Part shown: positions 3,521-13,790 of the stretch, piece after piece | Layout of the letters: every line of letters starts with the position of its first letter | How positions within the stretch are numbered: the first letter of the stretch is position 1 | Source: Bacillota bacterium | GTDB taxonomy: Bacteria; Bacillota; Clostridia; Peptostreptococcales; Anaerovoracaceae | Assembly: GCA_030530305.1 (NCBI GenBank) | Contig: JAUMVF010000006.1 | Location: 1-36,432, forward strand | Reading direction: 5' to 3' | Length of the DNA stretch: 36,432 nucleotides | The notes under the pieces: generated by a model | Seen by the model: only the letters and a program-made list of their open reading frames with translations | What the model was told of the DNA's origin: nothing | The model's database searches: none | Translations under genes and position numbers: made by a program

Positions 3521-3596
3521 GCTGTGGACAAATCCCCCATAAATTGCTATCATATCAACGTGGACGTTATCGAAACAACGTTCATCCCCTATATAA

Positions 3597-3649
3597 AGGC
3601 TTCCTGTGTTCAGGGCAAGACCTGCAGGGATCCGGAATACCGGAAGCCT
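3597..3649 (+). other. Structured leader upstream of the exported protein
   Basis: AGGCTTCC (3597-3604) pairs with GGAAGCCT (3642-3649) and encloses CAGG-GCAAGA-CCTG. TCCGG-AATA-CCGGA at 3631-3644 competes with the closing stem, so two alternative folds are possible just before the ribosome binding site at 3671. An AACGT-GG-ACGTT palindrome lies upstream (3558-3569). The stretch 3426-3685 otherwise holds no gene I can support; the reading frame that extends upstream of 3686 lacks a ribosome binding site and is probably not translated. Confidence 0.35.
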
Positions 3650-3685
3650 CATTTTGATTATCTGCTCCTGAAAGGAGACGGTAAG

Positions 3686-5023
3686 TTGACTGCATTTTCA
3701 GTCAGAAATCTTATCATACGGTGCATTGCGGTAATATTCTGCATGCTGCTTGCAGCAAGCTCTTTCGCTTGCTTTTTTGCAGTGCCGGCACACGCAGAGA
3801 CCCCGGGACAGGATCTTGTGATCCGGGTCGGATATTTCGGGGATGATAAAGATTACCGTGAAAAAGCCACTCTTTCTCGCAGCCAGCTGGAAAGCATGAA
3901 CAGCGGTGTTCATTACTACTCAAATCTCACCAGAGTCGGCACTGTCATGGGTACAGTAGCCGAAGGCCCGACCATATATTCCGTACTGGAAGCCGCAGGC
4001 ATCGACAGCGGTTCGGTCCAGACCCTGAATTTAAGGACCACCGACGGGACCAACGTGAACAACTGGTTCGTCTCTCTCAATATGGACCAGTGGGTCAATA
4101 CCACCAGATACTATTACCCGGAACTGAGAGGTAACTATGAGATAACCGACGACGGGCTTACCCTTCCGGGTGAAGGGTCCCTTTCAGGTTCTTCAACTGT
4201 CCCGGCCATATTGGCTATAAGGAGTTTTGCAACCAAGAGCCCGACAGAAGAACTGAGCCCCTCAAGCATGGACGAGTCCAGAAGTTACAGATTCTGCGTC
4301 GGCCAGACAGCTCTCAAGGAAGGACAGGCTTCCAACGCGTGGTCCTCAATGAACTCCGCCTACTATATTTTCGGTATCGACGTGACCCTGTACGGCAGCC
4401 CTTCTACCGTCACGGACATGTCCCTGAATCTTAAAAGCCGCAAAGTCAAAGTCGGCAGTAAAATGAAGATCAACGTAGTCCTCACCGGCCAGGAACTTTT
4501 CGAGGACAAGGTGTCCGGCAATCTCAAATGGGAAAGCAGCGACACTTCCATCGCCACTGTGAATCAGAACGGCGTCGTGACTTTCAAAAAGAAGGGAAAG
4601 GTCACCATAACAGTGACCGACCTTGAATCTGGCATTTCAAGATCAGTGACCGTTACCGGCATTTCCGGGAAAAAGCCCGAGCAGGACGAAGATCAGGATA
4701 AAAAGCCGGATAAAGACAAAAACGGGGACAAGGTAAAAGATAAAGACAAAGAGAAAACAGAAAAGGAACCTGTAGCTCAGGATAAAGATAAAGACAAGCA
4801 GAAAAAGAAGATCGGCACTAAAACTCTGGACACAACAGGTCTGCATGAAGTAGTCATCGGCGGGACCATGTTCGACCGCGAGGAAATGGATGCCGATGCC
4901 AAGCCGCTGGACGCGCAGGGAGATGATCCCAACGCACCCCTTTACGCCGGGATCGGAGCCGGTGTGTGTATCGGAGCCGGAGGTCTGGCAAGACTGCTTA
5001 TGTACTTAAAGGAGGTAAAATAA
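3686..5023 (+). CDS. Exported, membrane-anchored protein with SUOX-like and Ig-like (BIG2) domains
   Basis: I start the gene at TTG 3686, eight bases after AAAGGAG, which places a signal peptide at the N-terminus (hydrophobic core ~8-32, cleavage after PAHA, residue ~37). A longer open frame from 3524 would bury this signal. Residues ~42-235 resemble the sulfite-oxidase molybdopterin-binding fold (VAEGPTIYSVLEAAGID is its characteristic loop/helix), but the CxGN Moco motif is not seen. A BIG2 Ig-like domain follows (~245-325, ending in KGKVTITVTD), then a ~55-residue Lys/Asp-rich linker and a C-terminal hydrophobic segment (YAGIGAGVCIGAGGLARLLMYL) as membrane anchor. It ends right at the start of the ExbB-like gene, so the two probably work together at the cell surface. 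The ligand is unknown. Confidence 0.75.
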   Translation: MTAFSVRNLIIRCIAVIFCMLLAASSFACFFAVPAHAETPGQDLVIRVGYFGDDKDYREKATLSRSQLESMNSGVHYYSNLTRVGTVMGTVAEGPTIYSVLEAAGIDSGSVQTLNLRTTDGTNVNNWFVSLNMDQWVNTTRYYYPELRGNYEITDDGLTLPGEGSLSGSSTVPAILAIRSFATKSPTEELSPSSMDESRSYRFCVGQTALKEGQASNAWSSMNSAYYIFGIDVTLYGSPSTVTDMSLNLKSRKVKVGSKMKINVVLTGQELFEDKVSGNLKWESSDTSIATVNQNGVVTFKKKGKVTITVTDLESGISRSVTVTGISGKKPEQDEDQDKKPDKDKNGDKVKDKDKEKTEKEPVAQDKDKDKQKKKIGTKTLDTTGLHEVVIGGTMFDREEMDADAKPLDAQGDDPNAPLYAGIGAGVCIGAGGLARLLMYLKEVK

Positions 5024-5671
5024 ATGGGTGATGTCGTAAAAAGTACCCTCAGGGCAGTAACGGAAGCTCTGCAGATACCGACTATCATAATACTGCTGCT
5101 GCTTATAGCCATCACGATATTTCTTCTCGGAAGTATCCTTGTGGAGGTTTTTGCCGACAGGAGGCATCTGAAGGCCAGCATCCCCAAGGTGATAGATGAT
5201 ATCCAGGGAATGGGCGCGTCACAGCTTCAGATGTATTTCAAGAAATGCCCGCTGCTGAACCGTCAGAAAAAGGCTCTGGGTGAACTGATAACCCGCGACA
5301 ACCTTCCCGACAACAGCCGGGAGGCTCTCGCCAGACAGCTGCTCTATAACGAGCAGGAGCATTACGACAAGAGGACGAAATTCTCCGAAGTTATCGCCAA
5401 GATCGCTCCAATGTTCGGTCTTCTGGGCACACTGATACCGCTGGGTCCCGGACTTATAGCGTTGGGGCAGGGAGATACGAAGACTCTTTCCGAGTCCCTG
5501 CTCATCGCTTTTGACACAACAGTCGCAGGACTCATAAGCGGCGCTGTGGCCTTCGTAATCACAGCCATCAGAAACCGCTGGTATGAAAAATACATGGTAG
5601 GCCTGGAGACCATAATGGAGTGCATCCTTGACGTTCAGGATCTGAGAGGTAAGAAAAATGCGGATCAATAA
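5024..5671 (+). CDS. MotA/TolQ/ExbB proton channel family protein
   Basis: 215 residues with three membrane segments (~17-42, ~127-150, ~165-188). The stretch FGLLGTLIPLGPGLIALGQGD and the following TTVAGLISGAVAFVITAIR match the conserved last two helices of the ExbB/TolQ/MotA family, which forms a proton-driven motor with an ExbD/TolR/MotB partner. The start ATG abuts the stop of the preceding gene (TAAATG) and is preceded by GGAGG. The stop overlaps the DUF2149 gene by 14 nt, so translation of the three genes is coupled. The family normally energises envelope transport or motility; no TonB, TolA or outer-membrane receptor is encoded here. Confidence 0.88.
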   Translation: MGDVVKSTLRAVTEALQIPTIIILLLLIAITIFLLGSILVEVFADRRHLKASIPKVIDDIQGMGASQLQMYFKKCPLLNRQKKALGELITRDNLPDNSREALARQLLYNEQEHYDKRTKFSEVIAKIAPMFGLLGTLIPLGPGLIALGQGDTKTLSESLLIAFDTTVAGLISGAVAFVITAIRNRWYEKYMVGLETIMECILDVQDLRGKKNADQ

Positions 5672-5951
5672 AGGAAAGAACCGGCTCAGAGTAAGCAGAA
5701 GAGAGACAGACGGCACAAGTCCCATGGAAAGCCTCGCCAACCTGGTGGACGTTATGCTGGTATTTGCGTGCGGACTTATCATCGCCCTCATCGCGGCCCA
5801 TAACGTGGACCTGACCAAGACGCCTTACAAGGTGGACAGCATCAAGGAAAAAGCAGGACAGACCCAGAAGACCAAAGAGGATCTTCAGGAAATGGGCAAG
5901 ATATACAAGGACCCCGACACCGGGAAACTTTACGTTATCGAGGATGAATGA
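5658..5951 (+). CDS. DUF2149 family protein (ExbD/TolR-like partner)
   Basis: 97 residues: a basic N-terminus, one membrane helix (NLVDVMLVFACGLIIALIAAH, ~28-48) and a short C-terminal domain. The Asp at the start of the helix sits where ExbD/TolR/MotB proteins carry the proton-binding Asp. DUF2149 proteins are known beside ExbB-like genes, for example in haem-uptake (hmu-type) loci and in methanogens. It overlaps the ExbB-like gene by 14 nt. I infer a two-protein proton-driven motor. The C-terminal domain (KIYKDPDTGKLYVIEDE) is too short to be a full ExbD periplasmic domain. Confidence 0.82.
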   Translation: MRINKGKNRLRVSRRETDGTSPMESLANLVDVMLVFACGLIIALIAAHNVDLTKTPYKVDSIKEKAGQTQKTKEDLQEMGKIYKDPDTGKLYVIEDE

Positions 5952-5955
5952 TCTT

Positions 5956-6450
5956 ATGAAGAAGATATTGAAGACAGCCGCATCCCTCATTCTCTGCATC
6001 GCTCTCATCGCGGGACTTACCGCCTGCGGCGAGCCGGATGACATAGACATAAGCGGATATAAAGACCGCGTGATCACCATCAGAGGTGCTGCCGAAAAGC
6101 CTGTGAAATTGACTATCGCGGATCTGAAAAAGATGGACTGTGAAACAATCACCACTGAAAGCACCAGCGATAAAATCGGCGAGGTGCGCGCTACAGGGCC
6201 GTGGCTTGACACAGTGCTTGAGCCCTACGGCATAAAACAGGAGGAATTGAAAAAGCTCCTCATCAAAGGCAAGGACGGGTATGATATAAAACTGCTGAAC
6301 GACTATCTTAAAGAGCACCCCATCATGCTCTCTTTCGGTTCCGAAGGAAAACCCCTTGATGAAGATTGCGCCCCGTGCCGGATAATAATCGAAAAATCCG
6401 ACTCGGCATACTGGGTAAGACAGGTCAGGGAGATCACTCTGGTGAAGTGA
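5956..6450 (+). CDS. Lipoprotein with SUOX-like (molybdopterin-binding-fold) domain
   Basis: Of two in-frame ATGs, 5956 is preferred because AGGA lies 11 bases upstream; the ATG at 5944 has no ribosome binding site. The 164-residue product has a lipoprotein signal with lipobox LTAC (Cys ~24). The rest reads as a single compact domain of the oxidoreductase molybdopterin-binding type: VITIRGAAEKPVKLTIADLKKM, then VRATGPWLDTVLEPYGI, ending in WVRQVREITLV. In Moco enzymes a CxGN motif follows the first helix. Here that region reads ETITTESTSDKIGE, so no Moco-liganding Cys is present and catalysis is unlikely. It probably acts as an extracytoplasmic binding protein for the ExbB/DUF2149 module; the ligand is unknown. 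Confidence 0.78.
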   Translation: MKKILKTAASLILCIALIAGLTACGEPDDIDISGYKDRVITIRGAAEKPVKLTIADLKKMDCETITTESTSDKIGEVRATGPWLDTVLEPYGIKQEELKKLLIKGKDGYDIKLLNDYLKEHPIMLSFGSEGKPLDEDCAPCRIIIEKSDSAYWVRQVREITLVK

Positions 6451-6558: not shown

Positions 6559-6587
6559 TTGACTTTATACCCTCCCTCTTATATCAT
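6559..6587 (+). promoter_or_regulatory. Sigma-70-type promoter of the secreted-protein operon
   Basis: TTGACT (6559-6564), a 17-bp spacer and TATCAT (6582-6587). The predicted transcript starts near 6594, only about ten bases before the first structured RNA unit, as expected if the RNA units form the 5' leader. The interval 6451-6558 holds no gene I can support. Confidence 0.75.
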
Positions 6588-6602
6588 TTAATTACAATAT
6601 AA

Positions 6603-6700
6603 AAGACAACGAGCCGAAGCTCCTAAGGGCTTTCTAAGGAGCGGGGCCAATGGGTATCAGCGGGAAACCGCGGTGCCTTCCGTGTTTGTAAAGTGGTCTT
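6603..6700 (+). ncRNA. Riboswitch-like structured RNA, tandem unit 1
   Basis: The unit is closed by AAGAC (6603-6607) with GTCTT (6696-6700), extended by AC/GT across a mismatch. Inside are a hairpin GCTCCT...AGGAGC (6619-6642), a GAAA-capped hairpin GCGG-GAAA-CCGC (6660-6671) and a conserved 3' block GCCTTCCGTGTTTG. The second unit repeats the same architecture while the stem sequences differ. I could not match it with certainty to a known class. A molybdenum-cofactor riboswitch (Rfam MOCO_RNA_motif) is my leading hypothesis, from the genomic context and the GAAA-capped stem only. Confidence 0.7.
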
Positions 6701-6714
6701 GAGATAATACACAT

Positions 6715-6810
6715 AAGACGACGAGCAGAAAGCCCTACGGGAAACTACGGGCTGATGCCGCTGGGTTTGACCGGAAACGGTCAGGCCTTCCGTGTTTGAA
6801 AAGTAGTCTT
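6715..6810 (+). ncRNA. Riboswitch-like structured RNA, tandem unit 2
   Basis: Second copy of the same fold, 14 nt after the first. The closing stem is AAGAC (6715-6719) with GTCTT (6806-6810). The first hairpin is AGCCC...GGGCT (6730-6752), and the GAAA-capped hairpin is GACCG-GAAA-CGGTC (6769-6782), one pair longer than in unit 1 with different bases. The unpaired blocks ACGAGC, CTGGGT and CCTTCCGTGTTTG are kept. Conserved loops with changed but still pairing stems are the hallmark of a functional RNA. Confidence 0.7.
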
Positions 6811-6837
6811 GAGATATCTTTATAACAACGCATTTCG

Positions 6838-6858
6838 AGCTGCTTTTCGAAAGGAGCT
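6838..6858 (+). promoter_or_regulatory. Hairpin sequestering the ribosome binding site
   Basis: AGCT-g-CTTT-tcg-AAAG-g-AGCT: the 3' arm contains the ribosome binding site AAAGGAG (6850-6856) of the gene at 6866. This would be a translation-control expression platform for the tandem RNA just upstream. Confidence 0.65.
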
Positions 6859-6865
6859 ATAAGAA

Positions 6866-8284
6866 ATGCGTATTTTATTATCTGAAAACAAATCTTTGAA
6901 ACAGAAGATCCTCGGCGGATCGCTTGCGTTGTTTCTTTCGTTTTGCGTAGCCCTTTCCGGGATATCCTTCGCTTACGCCGATGAATTCGATGATCAGGCA
7001 GCTCAGAACGGAAAGAATTTCACACCGGTGCCGGACAATGAAAAGACTTCTTTCCTGCTGTTCGGTTCAGGCGCCTCCGGCGGCGACGGTATGCAGGGCC
7101 GGTGGGAAATGCTGACTAAGGATGACATGATGTCCATCAGCAACAACACCACCGCCAGGGAAGTCTTTGACGCAGGAACCTATGCCATATGGAAATCCGG
7201 GCAGAATTTCTCAACTACCACCGACGGCAAAAACCTTACTTTCGATCTTGGGACCGCAGGTATCAATATAAAGAATCTGGCAAAAAACTACAAAATCGAA
7301 AGCGGCGGTAATGATAACAAGAGCAGGCTGCTGATCGTGGATCAGGATGGCAATTCGGTATCAAGCCGTGACTACGCCCTCGAATATCCCCGTTATTATT
7401 TCAGCGACATGACTGCAAGCGGCGTTGAGGTCACTCCGCTTCTGAAGATCAAGGACGGGGTGTTCTCTCTCCGTACAGGCCAGGACAAAGCCACCGAGGT
7501 CACTGCCGATCTGTGGAAAGATGATATCAAGACTTTGCAGATAGACACCATTACTACAGCCACCGCGAAACCAGATGTGGTAATCGATGTTTTAGATGGC
7601 AAGACAGAAGTGGACTACACTCTCAGCGATGTTGTGTACTCCGGTCAGTACGACGCTGTTTTCGCTTACCGCAACGCTGCCGATGAGCAGATAACCGCAA
7701 CTGTACGCGGCGCCAGACTTTCCGATGTCCTTGCTGCGAAATCCATTAAGATCGCTTCAGGCGACACTCTGTACGGTCTGGATGCCAACGGAGCAGCAGT
7801 TAAACTGACCAGCCCGATCAGCCAGTATTTCCTGGCTTATGAAGGAGCCGAAACCAAGGCGGACGCGACAGAGACCGCCCTTACCAGCAACAGCGAATTC
7901 GTCCTGTTCGGACCGGGAACCACGGAGTCCCAGGTGAAGATGAAAGATATCTATACGATCAAGATCATCAGGGCCACTCCTCCGACGCCCGTAGTCAAGA
8001 AACCTCCGATGACAAAGATCACCAAACTTACTAAACCCACCAAAAGATCCATCAGGATCAGATGGGCCAAGAGGACCGGTATCAAAGGTTATCAGATAAG
8101 AATGAAACGGGCCGGCGGAACATACAGGATCATCAAAACCATCAAAAAAGCCGGGACGACCACTTTCGTCAAGAAAAAGCTGAAGAAAGGCAAGAAGTAC
8201 TACTTCATGGTCCGCACCTATAAAGTAGTGAACGGCAAGACTTACTACAGCAAGTGGTCCAAGGCTAGATATAGGAAACTGTAA
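6866..8284 (+). CDS. Secreted protein with SUOX-like domain(s) and C-terminal fibronectin type III domain
   Basis: 472 residues. The signal peptide is cleaved after FAYA (~38). Residues ~236-370 carry the same core as the neighbouring exported proteins (ITATVRGARLSDVLAA, then QYFLAYEG, FVLFGPG and MKDIYTIKI), that is, a sulfite-oxidase-like molybdopterin-binding fold without a visible CxGN cysteine. Residues ~55-215 (FLLFGSGASGGDG...) may be a more divergent copy. A Lys/Arg-rich fibronectin type III domain closes the protein (~383-472: ITKLTKPTKRSIRIRW, ending SKWSKARYRKL). It is the first gene after the tandem structured RNA, and its ribosome binding site lies in a hairpin, so it is the direct target of that control. 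It is probably attached to the cell wall through its basic C-terminus; its function is unknown. Confidence 0.75.
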   Translation: MRILLSENKSLKQKILGGSLALFLSFCVALSGISFAYADEFDDQAAQNGKNFTPVPDNEKTSFLLFGSGASGGDGMQGRWEMLTKDDMMSISNNTTAREVFDAGTYAIWKSGQNFSTTTDGKNLTFDLGTAGINIKNLAKNYKIESGGNDNKSRLLIVDQDGNSVSSRDYALEYPRYYFSDMTASGVEVTPLLKIKDGVFSLRTGQDKATEVTADLWKDDIKTLQIDTITTATAKPDVVIDVLDGKTEVDYTLSDVVYSGQYDAVFAYRNAADEQITATVRGARLSDVLAAKSIKIASGDTLYGLDANGAAVKLTSPISQYFLAYEGAETKADATETALTSNSEFVLFGPGTTESQVKMKDIYTIKIIRATPPTPVVKKPPMTKITKLTKPTKRSIRIRWAKRTGIKGYQIRMKRAGGTYRIIKTIKKAGTTTFVKKKLKKGKKYYFMVRTYKVVNGKTYYSKWSKARYRKL

Positions 8285-8343: not shown

Positions 8344-10305
8344 ATGGATGTAAAAACCAGAAAGAGCAGAATAATAGCTCTGGTATTGTCACTGCTTATC
8401 GCACTGGCATTCATGCCGGCCATCGCTTCTGCGGATGGTGAAATCTCTACAGGCCTTGACTTTTCAAGCAAAGGCGGCTCTCCAACCAAAGCGGTAGAGA
8501 CTCAGGTAGGCGCTGAAAAGGCGGGCTATATCGCTGCAGTAGCAACCGGAGGAGATCCGGCTTACAACAAAGTTACATGTGTCAGCGCTGATGAGTCTAT
8601 AGCAACTGTTGTCGACCAGAATAAGACCGACAGCCAGGGCTACTGGAAATTTGATATCGTTGGTCACAAAGCAGGATCCACAACGATAACTGTAACTGCA
8701 AACGACAACCCGGCAAACACTGCGGAAGTTGTTGTAAATGTTGCGGCACCGGCAACCGACATATATCTGGACTTCAACAGCCCGCTTTCACTCAACACAG
8801 CCGTTGGAGCTCAGAAAGGCGGTCTGATCGCAGTTTACGCAGCAGGCGGCACAGAAGAGTTCGGAAAGGTTGAATGCGAGAGCCAGGATCCAACCATCGC
8901 AACTGTAACACCTACCGGCAAACAGATGCAGGGTCAATGGTGGAAGTTCGATGTTACCGGTCTGAAGACAGGTACGACAGACGTAGTTGTAAAATCCGTT
9001 GAAGATCCTGAAGTTCAGGAAATCGTAACAGTTACTGTAGTAGAAGACCTGATCACAGTAAAATACGGAGACCTCGTTGAGGGCTTCGACATCAACGAAT
9101 TCAGCGCTCTGCCTACAGTAGAAGTACCTGCATGGGGCGGAAGAAACCACTACTTCTCCTTCCTGACTTATCCTGAAGAAGGTAAGGTTTCCGAAGGACC
9201 TACTGTTGAGACACTTCTCACCGCGGCAGGCGTAGATGTAGATGCTCTGTCAGATGATCAGATCATCAAATTCATACCTTCCGACAATCCTAAGTACACA
9301 GCAGTATTTACAGTCAAGCAGATTCTCCGTACACCGAGATACTTCTTCCCGAACTCCGCAAGCCTTACAGAAGGCAAGATTGCTACAGCAGCTCAGCTCG
9401 AAGGCGCGGTAGAGACTCCGACAGTTATCTGCAAGATGGATAACACAGATTCAAGACTCGTATTCGGACAGGTCGCTCCTAACGAGAGAAGCGTTGCCGT
9501 TTCTGCTAAATGCATGTCCACAGGCGGAACAATAGAGATCTTAGATGAGACAGCGACTAAGCTGACCAATGACGTTACGGCCAGCATCGCAAGCGGCAGC
9601 AATGTAAAAGCAGGAGCAGAGATCAAGCTGAACTCACCTACCATGCTCGTAAATGAGATCTACTACACGACTAACGGAAACACTCCAAGCGTTTGGAAAT
9701 CTGCCCTGTACAACTACTGCACAAAGGGCGATTATGCTACTGCAAAGATCACAGCTCCTAAGAAATTAGGTCCGTTCACAGTAAAAGTAATGCAGTACAT
9801 CTACGGATCCAATCCGAGCGCTGTGAAGACTTTCAAGTACACAGTTCCGGCAACCAAGGGCAGCACCTATGCTGTAAACAGCCAGAAATACAAAGTGACT
9901 AAAGTCGCTACAGCCAAAGCAAAGGGAACCGTTACTTTAACAAAGTCCAAGAACGCTAAATCCGTAACTGTACCTAAAACTGTTAAGCTGGCAGACGGCA
10001 GAACATACAACGTAACTGCTGTAGCCGCTAAGGCTTTCACACCGACCAAAGTACGTACAGTATATATAGGCGCAAATGTAACTACTCTCAAGCCGTACGC
10101 TCTGAAGGGCAGCAAGGCAACGAAGGTATTCGTTAAGACAAAGAAACTGAAGAAGACTACTGTTAAGAAGTCACTCTCAGGCTCCAAGGTCAACTACGTT
10201 ATCGTAAGAGTAGGCACAAAGGCAGCCAACAAGACTTACGTGACCAAGTACAAGAAGATCTTCACAAAGGCAAATGCCGGAAGAAAAGTAACTGTAAAAA
10301 GATAA
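8344..10305 (+). CDS. Secreted protein: two Ig-like repeats, SUOX-like domain, chitobiase-C-like domain, BspA-type LRR tail
   Basis: 653 residues, with AAGGAGG just upstream. Signal peptide to ~30 (IASA). Two ~95-residue Ig-like repeats follow (~34-133 and ~139-232; each contains a TGG...V.C/E.S.D..IATV core and a W-K-F-D strand). Next comes a SUOX-like domain (~236-400, with VSEGPTVETLLTAAGVD), a segment like the chitobiase/hexosaminidase C-terminal domain (~410-500, IYYTTNGNTPSV) and a Lys/Thr-rich tail (~505-653) like BspA-type LRR_5 repeats (VTAVAAKAFTPTKVRTVYIG). The last three parts recur in the next gene. Codons favour A/T endings (GTA, ACA, GCA) far more than the flanking genes, suggesting an abundant surface protein. 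It is likely co-transcribed from the promoter at 6559. Confidence 0.75.
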   Translation: MDVKTRKSRIIALVLSLLIALAFMPAIASADGEISTGLDFSSKGGSPTKAVETQVGAEKAGYIAAVATGGDPAYNKVTCVSADESIATVVDQNKTDSQGYWKFDIVGHKAGSTTITVTANDNPANTAEVVVNVAAPATDIYLDFNSPLSLNTAVGAQKGGLIAVYAAGGTEEFGKVECESQDPTIATVTPTGKQMQGQWWKFDVTGLKTGTTDVVVKSVEDPEVQEIVTVTVVEDLITVKYGDLVEGFDINEFSALPTVEVPAWGGRNHYFSFLTYPEEGKVSEGPTVETLLTAAGVDVDALSDDQIIKFIPSDNPKYTAVFTVKQILRTPRYFFPNSASLTEGKIATAAQLEGAVETPTVICKMDNTDSRLVFGQVAPNERSVAVSAKCMSTGGTIEILDETATKLTNDVTASIASGSNVKAGAEIKLNSPTMLVNEIYYTTNGNTPSVWKSALYNYCTKGDYATAKITAPKKLGPFTVKVMQYIYGSNPSAVKTFKYTVPATKGSTYAVNSQKYKVTKVATAKAKGTVTLTKSKNAKSVTVPKTVKLADGRTYNVTAVAAKAFTPTKVRTVYIGANVTTLKPYALKGSKATKVFVKTKKLKKTTVKKSLSGSKVNYVIVRVGTKAANKTYVTKYKKIFTKANAGRKVTVKR

Positions 10306-10330: not shown

Positions 10331-11713
10331 ATGATTATGAAGAGGAAACCGGTTATTCTTATTCTCAGTTTAATAATGATGATCGTAATAAGTACCCCCT
10401 GCAGCATTTTTGCTGCAGAGGGACCTCTTTATGTCTATGACGGGGATACTCTCATGAGAGAGTATTCGTATGAAGATCTGGAGGCTGTCTGGGAAGCCGA
10501 AGGCAGCAAAGCCTATAATTACTCCGGTTACAATACTTACGCGACTTACAAGACCATCCGGGAGGATGATGAGACCCGTGCAACAGGTCCGACTGTCCTG
10601 GGACTTATTGAAAATGCGGGTGTAGACCTTGATACTCTTGCGGAAAACGATACCTTCAAGATCCAGGCTGCAGACGGTGTATACTGCAGACTCACCTACC
10701 AGCAGCTGGCCGGGGATACTTACTATTTCCCCAATGGCAACATCGGCACCGAACAGGGTATGAAAGGTGACGAATCTTCACGGGAAGGTGCTGTTGTCAT
10801 GCCTGTGATAATTGACCTGAAAGACACAAAGCAGCACAGCACCATGCGTATCGGACAAGTCGCTCCCAATGAGCAGAACTGGCCTGCCCACATGCATTAC
10901 ATGACCGACACACAGGGCGGCAAGATCATCATTCAGCGCGGAGCCGCTGTCAAAGAATCTGCTGATCTTACGACTTCCGTCGGATCAAAGACCCAGGTCG
11001 TGCCCGGTCAGAAAATAACAATAAACGGCGGGGCCCACTACGTCAAGATCTACTACACCACTGACGGGACGGAACCCACCGTTGATTCAGATATCTATAA
11101 CTTCAATTCCTACACAGGACCGGAAGCGGACAATCCGATAATAGTCCCTAACGAAATAGGCAGTACTTTCACCATAAAGTGTTTCAAGCACAGATACGGC
11201 TATTTCGACAGCAATGTGCAGACTTTTAAATACACTATCGTAAAACAGATACCGAAAGTTACAAAAGGAACTGTTTATGCTGTTTCCAATCAGAAATATA
11301 AAGTAACAAAAGTCGCCACATCTTCGGCCCGCGGCACTGTTACTTTTACAAAATCAAAGAACGCCAAGACCGTTTACGTGCCGAAAGCAGTTAAACTGAA
11401 GGACGGCAGGTATTACAACGTCAATATCGTAGCAGCCAAAGCCTTTACCCCAACCAGGGTCCGCATCGCTTACATCGGCGCTAACGTAACTACTTTAAAG
11501 CCTTACGCTCTCAAAGGAAGCCGGGCTACAAAAGTCTTCATCAAAACAAAGAAACTGAAAAAGGTGAACGTTAAAAAGTCGCTCACCGGATCCAAAGTAA
11601 AATACGTCGTTATCAGAGTCGGCACAAAGAAAGCGAACAGGACATACACTACTAAGTACAAGAAGTTCTTCACCAAAGCCAACGCAGGCAGAAAAGTCAC
11701 AGTCAAGTACTGA
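10331..11713 (+). CDS. Secreted paralogue: SUOX-like domain, chitobiase-C-like domain, BspA-type LRR tail
   Basis: 460 residues. ATG 10331 or the third codon ATG 10337 could start it; the ribosome binding site (GAAAG) is weak. Signal peptide to ~28. The SUOX-like domain (~32-200) contains RATGPTVLGLIENAGVD and MRIGQVAPNEQNW. The IYYTTDGTEPTV segment (~240) is chitobiase-C-like, and the tail from ~315 is nearly the same as that of the preceding gene (KAFTPT[KR]VR..YIGANVTT). So it arose by duplication with loss of the two Ig-like repeats, or the other protein gained them. Codon use is ordinary here, unlike its partner. It is the last gene before the terminator at 11736. Confidence 0.75.
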   Translation: MIMKRKPVILILSLIMMIVISTPCSIFAAEGPLYVYDGDTLMREYSYEDLEAVWEAEGSKAYNYSGYNTYATYKTIREDDETRATGPTVLGLIENAGVDLDTLAENDTFKIQAADGVYCRLTYQQLAGDTYYFPNGNIGTEQGMKGDESSREGAVVMPVIIDLKDTKQHSTMRIGQVAPNEQNWPAHMHYMTDTQGGKIIIQRGAAVKESADLTTSVGSKTQVVPGQKITINGGAHYVKIYYTTDGTEPTVDSDIYNFNSYTGPEADNPIIVPNEIGSTFTIKCFKHRYGYFDSNVQTFKYTIVKQIPKVTKGTVYAVSNQKYKVTKVATSSARGTVTFTKSKNAKTVYVPKAVKLKDGRYYNVNIVAAKAFTPTRVRIAYIGANVTTLKPYALKGSRATKVFIKTKKLKKVNVKKSLTGSKVKYVVIRVGTKKANRTYTTKYKKFFTKANAGRKVTVKY

Positions 11714-11780: not shown

Positions 11781-12320
11781 TCATGCTTTCTCCCGCTGCT
11801 TTTCCGGAAATCTGAAGACGCTGTCCGGAAGTCTGCGGAGAATAACAGTTGTAACGATTCCTGTAATGATCCCGCATATGATCCCGGAAAAAAGAAGTAC
11901 CGGGAAGTAGACGAATATGCTGAGATTTGAGACCAGCAGCGCCGCAGTGAAAAGCTGGGTCATGTTGTGCACTACCCCGCCGGCCGCGCTTATCCCTATA
12001 CATGAGAAAAGACCTGTTTTTTTCAGCAGAACCATCACCAGCAGACTGAGCAGTCCCCCTGCCATTGAATAGATTATCCCGAACACACCGGAGAAAAGGA
12101 ACCCGGCGATCACTATCCTGATCACATTCACCGCCAGAGCGTGTCCCCAGCCGTATACATACAAAGCGATGACCACTACAATATTGGCGATCCCCAGTTT
12201 CACTCCCGGTATACCTATATTGAAAGGTATGATCGCTTCCACATATGAAAGTATGAGCGCCAGCGCCGTAAGCAGAGCCACGGCGGCTATGCTTTTACTT
12301 CGCGACGGTGTCATAGTCAT
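11781..12320 (-). CDS. Gx transporter family membrane protein (EetB-like; formerly heptaprenyl diphosphate synthase component I)
   Basis: 179 residues, almost entirely hydrophobic, with about five to six membrane segments. The motif IPFNIGIPGVKLGIANIVVVIAL matches the Gx transporter / 'Hpre_diP_synt_I' family, whose old name is misleading. Its start overlaps the end of the NusG-domain-II gene by 26 nt. NusG-II plus Gx transporter plus apbE also occur together in loci for flavin-based extracellular electron transfer (EetA/EetB) and near Rnf-type clusters. A role in moving a small redox or flavin-related molecule across the membrane is inferred, not shown. Confidence 0.8.
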   Translation of the reverse strand: MTMTPSRSKSIAAVALLTALALILSYVEAIIPFNIGIPGVKLGIANIVVVIALYVYGWGHALAVNVIRIVIAGFLFSGVFGIIYSMAGGLLSLLVMVLLKKTGLFSCIGISAAGGVVHNMTQLFTAALLVSNLSIFVYFPVLLFSGIICGIITGIVTTVILRRLPDSVFRFPEKQREKA

Positions 12321-12657
12321 TGGTTTTTCCCTTTATTTCCACTACAACTTTATGGGGAAGACATATGATAGAATCCGGGGAATGGCTTATCTTCCCCTTT
12401 TTCACACAGTCCTGCCCGTGGCATGTGGATTTTTTCATGAACACTTTGCCGTTCTCGATCCTTATAGTGTTGCCTGTGTCGAGTTTTATAGTCCGGTCTT
12501 TATGCAGGTCGTATGAACCGTATTTGCTGCCGTCCACAGTCACAAGGACCCGGTCACCTGAAGACTCGGCGCCTGAGAACGCCAGAGTCGCGGCGATGCC
12601 TGCGGCTATGAGAATTATTATGAGTATTATATCTGCTTTTCTGATATATGCTGACAT
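12295..12657 (-). CDS. NusG domain II-containing membrane-anchored protein (EetA-like)
   Basis: 120 residues from the ATG at 12657, which follows a CGGAACGG purine-rich site; a GTG six codons earlier is less likely. There is one N-terminal membrane helix (IILIIILIAAGIAATLAF), then an extracytoplasmic domain with the family signature CHGQDCVKKGKISHSPDSI followed by CLPHKVVVEI. The three Cys suggest a bound metal or disulfide. Despite the name the family is not a transcription factor. It forms a coupled pair with the Gx transporter gene and lies downstream of apbE. Confidence 0.8.
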   Translation of the reverse strand: MSAYIRKADIILIIILIAAGIAATLAFSGAESSGDRVLVTVDGSKYGSYDLHKDRTIKLDTGNTIRIENGKVFMKKSTCHGQDCVKKGKISHSPDSIICLPHKVVVEIKGKTNDYDTVAK

Positions 12658-12722
12658 TTTTCCGTTCCGTTGCACTGCAGCTGCCGCGGATCTTCTTTAC
12701 CTGCCCCGGCTGCCGCAGCGCC

Positions 12723-13790
12723 CTATTCAACTACTGTTATATCATATTTATCTGACGTGAACGCGTCTTTCAGGCCTTTTGTAACATAGAGCTTGTTGTT
12801 TTCATCCATGAGCACCGCGTCGAACCGGTCGCTGCGCTGTCTCCAGAAATCCAGGGCTTTTTTCCTGCCCATTATATAAAGAGACGTTGAGAGCCCGTCG
12901 GCCAGAGTGCCGTCACCGCTGACTACAGTTACAGAGATCAGACCTTTGTCCGCCGGATACCCGGTCGCCGGGTCCATTATGTGATGATACGTTTTCCCGT
13001 TTTTAGTGAAGTTGCGCTCATAGCCCCCCGATGTGACTGCGGCTTTGTCCGCGATCTCCAGGACGCCCACATATTCATCATCCCCGTAGGGACTGCCGAT
13101 GGCTACCCGCCAGCTGCTTCCGTCGGGCTTGGTTCCGAGAGCCTGCACGTTCCCGCCCAGATTGATCAGTGCGCTTTCGATGCCGTTTGCCTTAAAAAGC
13201 TCAATGACTTTCGAAGAAGCATATCCCTTGGCTATGCCGCCAAGATCTATCTGCATGCCCTTCTGCCCGATTTTCGCGCTTTTGCCGCCGCCAATCACAG
13301 ACAGCTTCGACAGGTCCATTTTCGAGATCAGACGCTTAAGTTTCCTCTCCGAAGGCACTCTGTATTTTTTCGTCGTGAATCCCCACGCCTTCATTACCGG
13401 ATAGATGGCTATATTGAAGACGCCGCCGGTATCCTTGTAAAGCGCTTTGGATCTTGTAATCAGATATCCGGCATCCTTGTCTATGGGACCTCTCCTTTTC
13501 CTGTTGAGTTTAGCTATCTGGCTGTCTTTGTTTTCGGCAGAAAGGCTCTGGTCCAGATCCATGATAAGCTCTTTTCCTTCTTCAAGCGCGCTCTGCGCGT
13601 CATCTCCGTAGGCGCTGAGTGTCATATATGTGTCCATAGCAAAAAACTCGATGCTTTGCGGCTCGGTCTGGTCGCTCCCGCTTTCCTGCTGTGCGCTTTC
13701 CGAACTGCCGCATCCCATAAGAAGAAGCAGCAATGCCAGTAATACGACTGTGGCCGGCTTTATGTAGTTTTCCGTTTTTCTCCTCTTCAT
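12723..13790 (-). CDS. apbE: FAD:protein FMN transferase (ApbE), lipoprotein
   Basis: 355 residues. A lipoprotein signal (ALLLLLMGC, Cys ~27) anchors it outside the membrane. The family markers are FFAMDTYMTLSAYG, then IDLGGIAKGYASSKV, ALINLGGNVQALGTKPDG and HHIMDPATGYPADKG. ApbE uses FAD to attach FMN covalently to Thr/Ser of exported or membrane redox proteins such as RnfG, NqrC or PplA. AAGGGAAG precedes the start. The following NusG-II and Gx transporter genes make an extracellular flavin/electron-transfer module likely. No protein with an obvious ApbE target motif was found in this window, so its substrate is encoded elsewhere. Confidence 0.9.
   Translation of the reverse strand: MKRRKTENYIKPATVVLLALLLLLMGCGSSESAQQESGSDQTEPQSIEFFAMDTYMTLSAYGDDAQSALEEGKELIMDLDQSLSAENKDSQIAKLNRKRRGPIDKDAGYLITRSKALYKDTGGVFNIAIYPVMKAWGFTTKKYRVPSERKLKRLISKMDLSKLSVIGGGKSAKIGQKGMQIDLGGIAKGYASSKVIELFKANGIESALINLGGNVQALGTKPDGSSWRVAIGSPYGDDEYVGVLEIADKAAVTSGGYERNFTKNGKTYHHIMDPATGYPADKGLISVTVVSGDGTLADGLSTSLYIMGRKKALDFWRQRSDRFDAVLMDENNKLYVTKGLKDAFTSDKYDITVVE

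Follow-up and report, generated by a model that had tools for sequence, protein, structure and literature searches.

The 36,432-nucleotide stretch of Anaerovoracaceae DNA analysed here (the window) carries two tightly packed riboswitch aptamers ahead of an operon for secreted proteins, and we propose that they form a doublet of P3-less Moco/Tuco aptamers sharing one translational OFF platform, a mechanism to which, taken in full, we assign a probability of roughly 0.8. The sensor class and its use in tandem are already known; the new part is the packed, one-platform form, which looks unusual for the class. Unless stated otherwise, the features described below lie on the forward strand.

Measured from P1 edge to P1 edge, aptamer unit 1 occupies positions 6603-6700 and aptamer unit 2 positions 6714-6811, with a linker at 6701-6713 (13-14 nt) between them, and both units lie outside genes. 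The first-pass annotation had described two repeated units across a short gap, with a shared closing stem (AAGAC/GTCTT) and internal stems that are unlike in sequence and still pair, and the mapped anatomy agrees with it: AAGAC is found at 6603 and 6715 and GTCTT at 6696 and 6806, and the sequences of P2 and P4 have diverged between the units with pairing kept in both. With differences between the copies all along P2 and P4, an assembly artefact is unlikely. Over their 3' halves (44 nt, spaced 110 nt apart) the units share 84% identity. Each unit has P1, P2, P4 and P5, with P4 capped by GAAA, and in P1 of both a purine-purine mismatch occupies a column that elsewhere is 98% U and forms a U-A pair. 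The likeness to RF01055 as published (Regulski 2008, PMC2408646) lies in a whole-model match above the cut-off and in the same set of stems with no P3, whereas the window differs in having two copies so close together, in the altered P1 junction pair, and in its target, an operon of secreted SUOX-like/fn3 proteins.

A covariance-model scan against all of Rfam matched unit 2 to RF01055 with 61.9 bits over 6707-6822, and unit 1, when scanned alone, scored 53.0 bits over 6595-6712, the gathering score being 36 bits. Wider and whole-window Rfam scans list the match of unit 2 alone, apparently owing to a 6-nt overlap between the matches of the two units. Other Rfam classes, including c-di-GMP, gave no match in either unit. 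Of the 29 highly conserved columns (at least 90%), unit 1 keeps 27 and unit 2 keeps 28. We also built our own covariance model from 25 homologues and aligned 107 matches, in which paired cells reached 91.6% against 65.6% when shuffled and double-sided changes numbered 905 against 315, margins that are large even though an alignment fitted to a model is biased towards structure. Double changes were seen in 24 of the 29 pairs, and controls with slid partners scored far lower. On these model matches, both units are RF01055 Moco/Tuco riboswitch aptamers. The first-pass annotation had guessed at a Mo/W cofactor aptamer and had named an Rfam search (MOCO motif and c-di-GMP classes included) and covariation in homologues as checks; both came out in favour of the guess, and the known class that fits the two units is the related one rather than an unrelated RNA.

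Upstream of the doublet, a sigma-70-type promoter (TTGACT-17-TATCAT) at 6559-6587 would place the start of the RNA near 6594-6597. It had been called strong, and its 10/12 match stands; chance alone would give 0.7 sites this good in the region, which makes the promoter plausible but short of proven. Downstream, a sequester hairpin at 6828-6871 (-18.4 kcal/mol, z -3.1) encloses the Shine-Dalgarno sequence AAAGGAG (6850-6856) and the start codon ATG (6866-6868), in keeping with the earlier claim that a hairpin covers the ribosome binding site (RBS) of the next gene. The switching strand of unit 2 (UUUGAAAAGUAG-U-CUUGAGAU, 6795-6815) is complementary to 6832-6851, the 5' arm of this start-hiding hairpin, which predicts a ligand-OFF translational switch. 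The helix between the two has 20 bp with one bulge at -21.2 kcal/mol, and 5 of 2000 shuffles were as stable; some of this complementarity is to be expected, given the likeness of the aptamer core AAAGUAG to a Shine-Dalgarno sequence. Pairing of the 3' strand of unit 1 with the platform is much weaker (-15.4 kcal/mol, with 155 of 2000 shuffles as good), so that the platform may lie beyond the reach of unit 1. A scheme in which the 3' strand of either aptamer opens the platform was rejected, as the unit 1 strand never competes in the energy model.

In the folding model, the sequester hairpin had P = 0.99 at all three transcript lengths when unit 2 was native, and P = 0.17-0.37 when unit 1 was native and unit 2 free, the anti-sequester helix then taking over. 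With both units free, the model runs from mostly closed to mostly open by transcript length, and the ON state is for that reason less certain. In the mechanism that we propose, the free 3' strand of aptamer 2 would pair with 6832-6851 when the cofactor is scarce, and this pairing would keep the Shine-Dalgarno sequence and ATG of the 6866 gene accessible (ON). Binding of the cofactor, in its tungsten form by the P3 rule discussed below, would allow aptamer 2 to fold its P1 and core, and 6832-6851 would be freed so that the hairpin could hide the start site (OFF).

Two other readings of the platform were weighed against this mechanism. The hairpin at 6828-6871 could be an intrinsic terminator rather than a cover for the RBS, given that ATTTTATTA stands directly 3' of it and that a related locus, L093, uses a terminator; this syntenic locus has one RF01055-type RNA in the equivalent position, with a 3' strand able to base-pair with the 5' arm of that terminator. 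However, the start codon in the window falls within the stem, the tail falls short of a clean run of T, no terminator was called at this hairpin by the scan, and we regard a terminator here as quite improbable. The logic common to the window doublet and L093 is, we infer, ligand-OFF. The units could also be two independent riboswitches, pseudo-cooperative and each with its own expression platform, as in other doublets: a 2022 survey classed tandem Moco and Wco RNAs among multiple expression platforms (PMC9481103), and a terminator or terminator-like hairpin lies between the units in all four further doublets of the same taxonomic order (L134, L157, L158 and L159; sequences read by eye). This is contradicted by the window sequence, in which the linker contains no terminator, RBS or ORF and is too short to hold a terminator, so that both units must act through one platform, and we hold two independent platforms to be very improbable indeed.

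A one-platform doublet would stand apart from the tandem RNAs to which it is otherwise alike. The L158 doublet (genome G390, from another family of the order) likewise has two P3-less RF01055-type RNAs and secreted SUOX-like targets, but its units are ~145 nt apart and each is followed by a terminator-like hairpin of its own. At L134 (898-1156) we observed a mixed doublet, a short variant and then a standard P3-less RNA, with a terminator-like hairpin on each, ahead of a secreted SUOX-like gene. The tandem Moco/Wco RNAs of S. wolfei and G. metallireducens (PMC9481103) share the class, the tandem arrangement and the P3-less repeats, and differ from the two aptamers and single platform of the window in having multiple platforms; in the P3-less triplet of S. 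wolfei, terminators follow the first two RNAs (Regulski 2008, PMC2408646). P3-less RNAs ahead of putative sulphite oxidase genes had also been noted earlier in S. wolfei. No doublet as tight as this one was found with a strict pattern in 84,980 species genomes or in viral contigs, a null result that does not show the absence of tight doublets because the pattern demands the exact core, and records near the source genome may be left out. A model search of 350 family genomes (~130 RNAs) listed no further same-strand pair within 1 kb, and weak partners can be missed by such a search, since the L134 pair surfaced only on rescanning of the locus. Tandem glycine riboswitches have two similar aptamers, a short linker and one platform. 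By its sequence anatomy the window doublet has the same arrangement, with the difference that its aptamer is unrelated and that no inter-aptamer tertiary contacts are known.

The P3 position holds 4 nt in both window units, and P3 is absent, to within two bases, in 105 of the 107 matches, a longer insert being found only in L040 and L046. An AOR gene was found in the source genome, and the characterised members of the AOR family are known as tungsten enzymes; a TupA-type tungstate transporter was not found in this genome, which is 84% complete. In the family, P3-less RNAs precede xanthine-oxidase-type hydroxylases, which are normally molybdenum enzymes, as often as they precede tungstate transporters. 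P3 was absent in 58 of 176 original examples of the class, and P3-less RNAs were linked to the tungsten cofactor, 17 of the 19 organisms with such RNAs having tungsten-related genes (Regulski 2008, PMC2408646). By this P3 rule the ligand of the doublet would be the tungsten cofactor, and the molybdenum cofactor is kept as an alternative because P3-less RNAs also lie ahead of the hydroxylases. That the units sense the molybdenum cofactor instead, or both, is a substantial possibility, if short of an even chance: the rule is correlative, and the E. coli RNA, when stripped of P3, did not switch specificity (Regulski 2008, PMC2408646), whereas the tungsten-related genes of those 17 organisms and the AOR gene of the source genome argue for tungsten. 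The two-input control that the first-pass annotation had allowed for is unlikely, since the two units share one class and, within it, the P3-less form. Moco and Tuco are too unstable for simple binding assays. Cooperativity of the doublet is plausible on the folding model, for the P1 strands are the same in both units and can swap partners, so that the folding of one unit would favour the native fold of the other. The modelled coupling amounts to -6.4 kcal/mol, where random aptamer pairs average -2.0 and 7 of 150 reach the same strength; a comparable value (mean -4.3) was obtained with artificial doublets built from two identical aptamers, and the coupling may therefore only reflect sequence similarity. 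Aptamer 1 would be the product of a local duplication and probably sharpens the response. It is also conceivable, and in our judgement rather unlikely, that switching is due to unit 2 alone, unit 1 being a duplicate that arose recently, is decaying and hardly alters the dose response, as the lower score of unit 1, the weak pairing of its 3' strand with the platform and the single copy in the relative L093 would suggest; unit 1 nevertheless retains nearly all of the highly conserved columns and can still form its stems after the divergence of P2 and P4, which points to selection after duplication.

The first gene controlled by the proposed switch (6866-8284) encodes a secreted protein of 472 aa with one or more probable SUOX-like domains and fibronectin type III. 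Its only match in Pfam is fn3, with no direct SUOX-type (Oxidored_molyb, PF00174) match, and its N-terminal part, as a three-sequence profile, aligned to a PF00174-type lipoprotein profile (hhalign 86%, E 4.9e-6, first domain). A second SUOX-like domain may be read from its sequence, and the product probably carries SUOX-fold (pterin-binding) domains. A single-sequence structure prediction of this protein gave a pLDDT of 31 and was hence set aside, and a search with it against the genome-contig collection returned no relatives. The second gene (8344-10305) encodes a secreted protein with Ig-like repeats, a SUOX-like and a CHB_HEX-like domain, and the third (10331-11713) a secreted paralogue of it (51% over 401 aa) with a SUOX-like and a CHB_HEX domain. 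The group that includes both proteins matches the SUOX lipoprotein profile at 98.5%, and that profile in turn has PDB matches among sulfite dehydrogenases and pterin-binding proteins. The two RF01055 units thus do lie upstream of a secreted-protein operon, as had been noticed at the outset. The preceding operon contains a MotA/ExbB gene (5024-5671) and a DUF2149 gene (5658-5951) and ends with a gene for a SUOX-fold lipoprotein (PF00174; 5944-6450). As a whole, this operon (3524-6450) comprises genes for a secreted SUOX-like/Big_2 protein, an ExbB-like protein, DUF2149 and the SUOX lipoprotein, and it is repeated in L056 and L093. On the reverse strand, genes at 11781-13790 for a Hpre_diP_synt_I-type membrane protein, a NusG domain II protein and an ApbE flavin transferase face the secreted-protein operon, and are suggestive of extracellular electron transfer.

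Related RNAs lie in comparable surroundings. At L093 the order is PBP, 3524-like, ExbB-like, DUF2149-like, SUOX lipoprotein, RNA, 6866-like and 8344-like, the 6866-like protein being 35% identical to the window 6866 protein, and this row sits behind genes for a FecCD-like permease and an ATPase (FecBCD-type transporter genes). FecCD and ABC ATPase genes also lie 3' of SUOX-like genes in L116, L135 and L096. Among ~105 RNAs, the first gene downstream encodes a TupA-type protein in ~21 cases, a Mo-hydroxylase in ~21, a secreted SUOX-like protein in ~17 and an AOR-type ferredoxin in ~7, where the TupA, hydroxylase and ferredoxin labels derive from short sequence motifs and five TupA lipoproteins were moved by hand out of the SUOX class, their weak profile matches being discounted as signal-peptide similarity. 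Genes after homologous RNAs also include MoeA, MoaC and AOR. The RNAs of this class are accordingly found ahead of Mo/W genes in relatives, and in the window ahead of the 6866 gene, SUOX-like by profile. Control of cell-surface proteins by such an element had been thought unusual, but with secreted SUOX-fold proteins directly behind about 17 of the ~105 RNAs it is a recurring feature of the family and not an oddity.

Two further observations were made at these loci. FMN-binding-looking proteins (by eye) adjoin RF01055-associated SUOX-like genes at L067 (from 6469 on) and L071 (1-480). In a short RF01055-like variant (~104 nt), near or below the Rfam cut-off, P4 carries a GCGA/GCAA loop, P2 is changed, and the core (CCUGCCAUUGUGCAAAGGAG) has the P5 C-G swapped to G-C; the variant lies mostly ahead of AOR-type ferredoxin or AOR genes and was seen at L097 (750-853), L143 (378-481), L146 (2389-2492), L140 (2933-3037 and 12782-12886), L054 (495-602) and others. 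It is possibly a sub-class of different specificity.

For the target proteins, the nearest described analogue is PruR, which is secreted, has the SUOX fold, binds pterins and is without the metal-binding cysteine. The likeness to PruR-type periplasmic pterin-binding proteins lies in the secreted SUOX-fold domains; the window proteins differ in being modular surface proteins with fn3/Ig/SLH domains. The analogy suggests that a link to pterin capture or sensing is worth considering. That the doublet represses a system at the cell surface that captures and imports either the metal itself or a pterin cofactor or its precursor is a long shot, in which the secreted SUOX-fold proteins and the ExbB-like motor, and in relatives the FecBCD-type ABC transporter, would be the parts of the system. 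If the one-platform reading is true, the cooperative two-aptamer design, for which glycine riboswitches are the best-known example, would extend to the Mo/W class, with L093 (single) and L158 (a doublet with terminators) at hand as near relatives for comparison. The recurring association of these RNAs with secreted SUOX-fold proteins also offers a first clue to the role of such widespread surface proteins, which may be tied to the supply of Mo/W cofactor or pterin.
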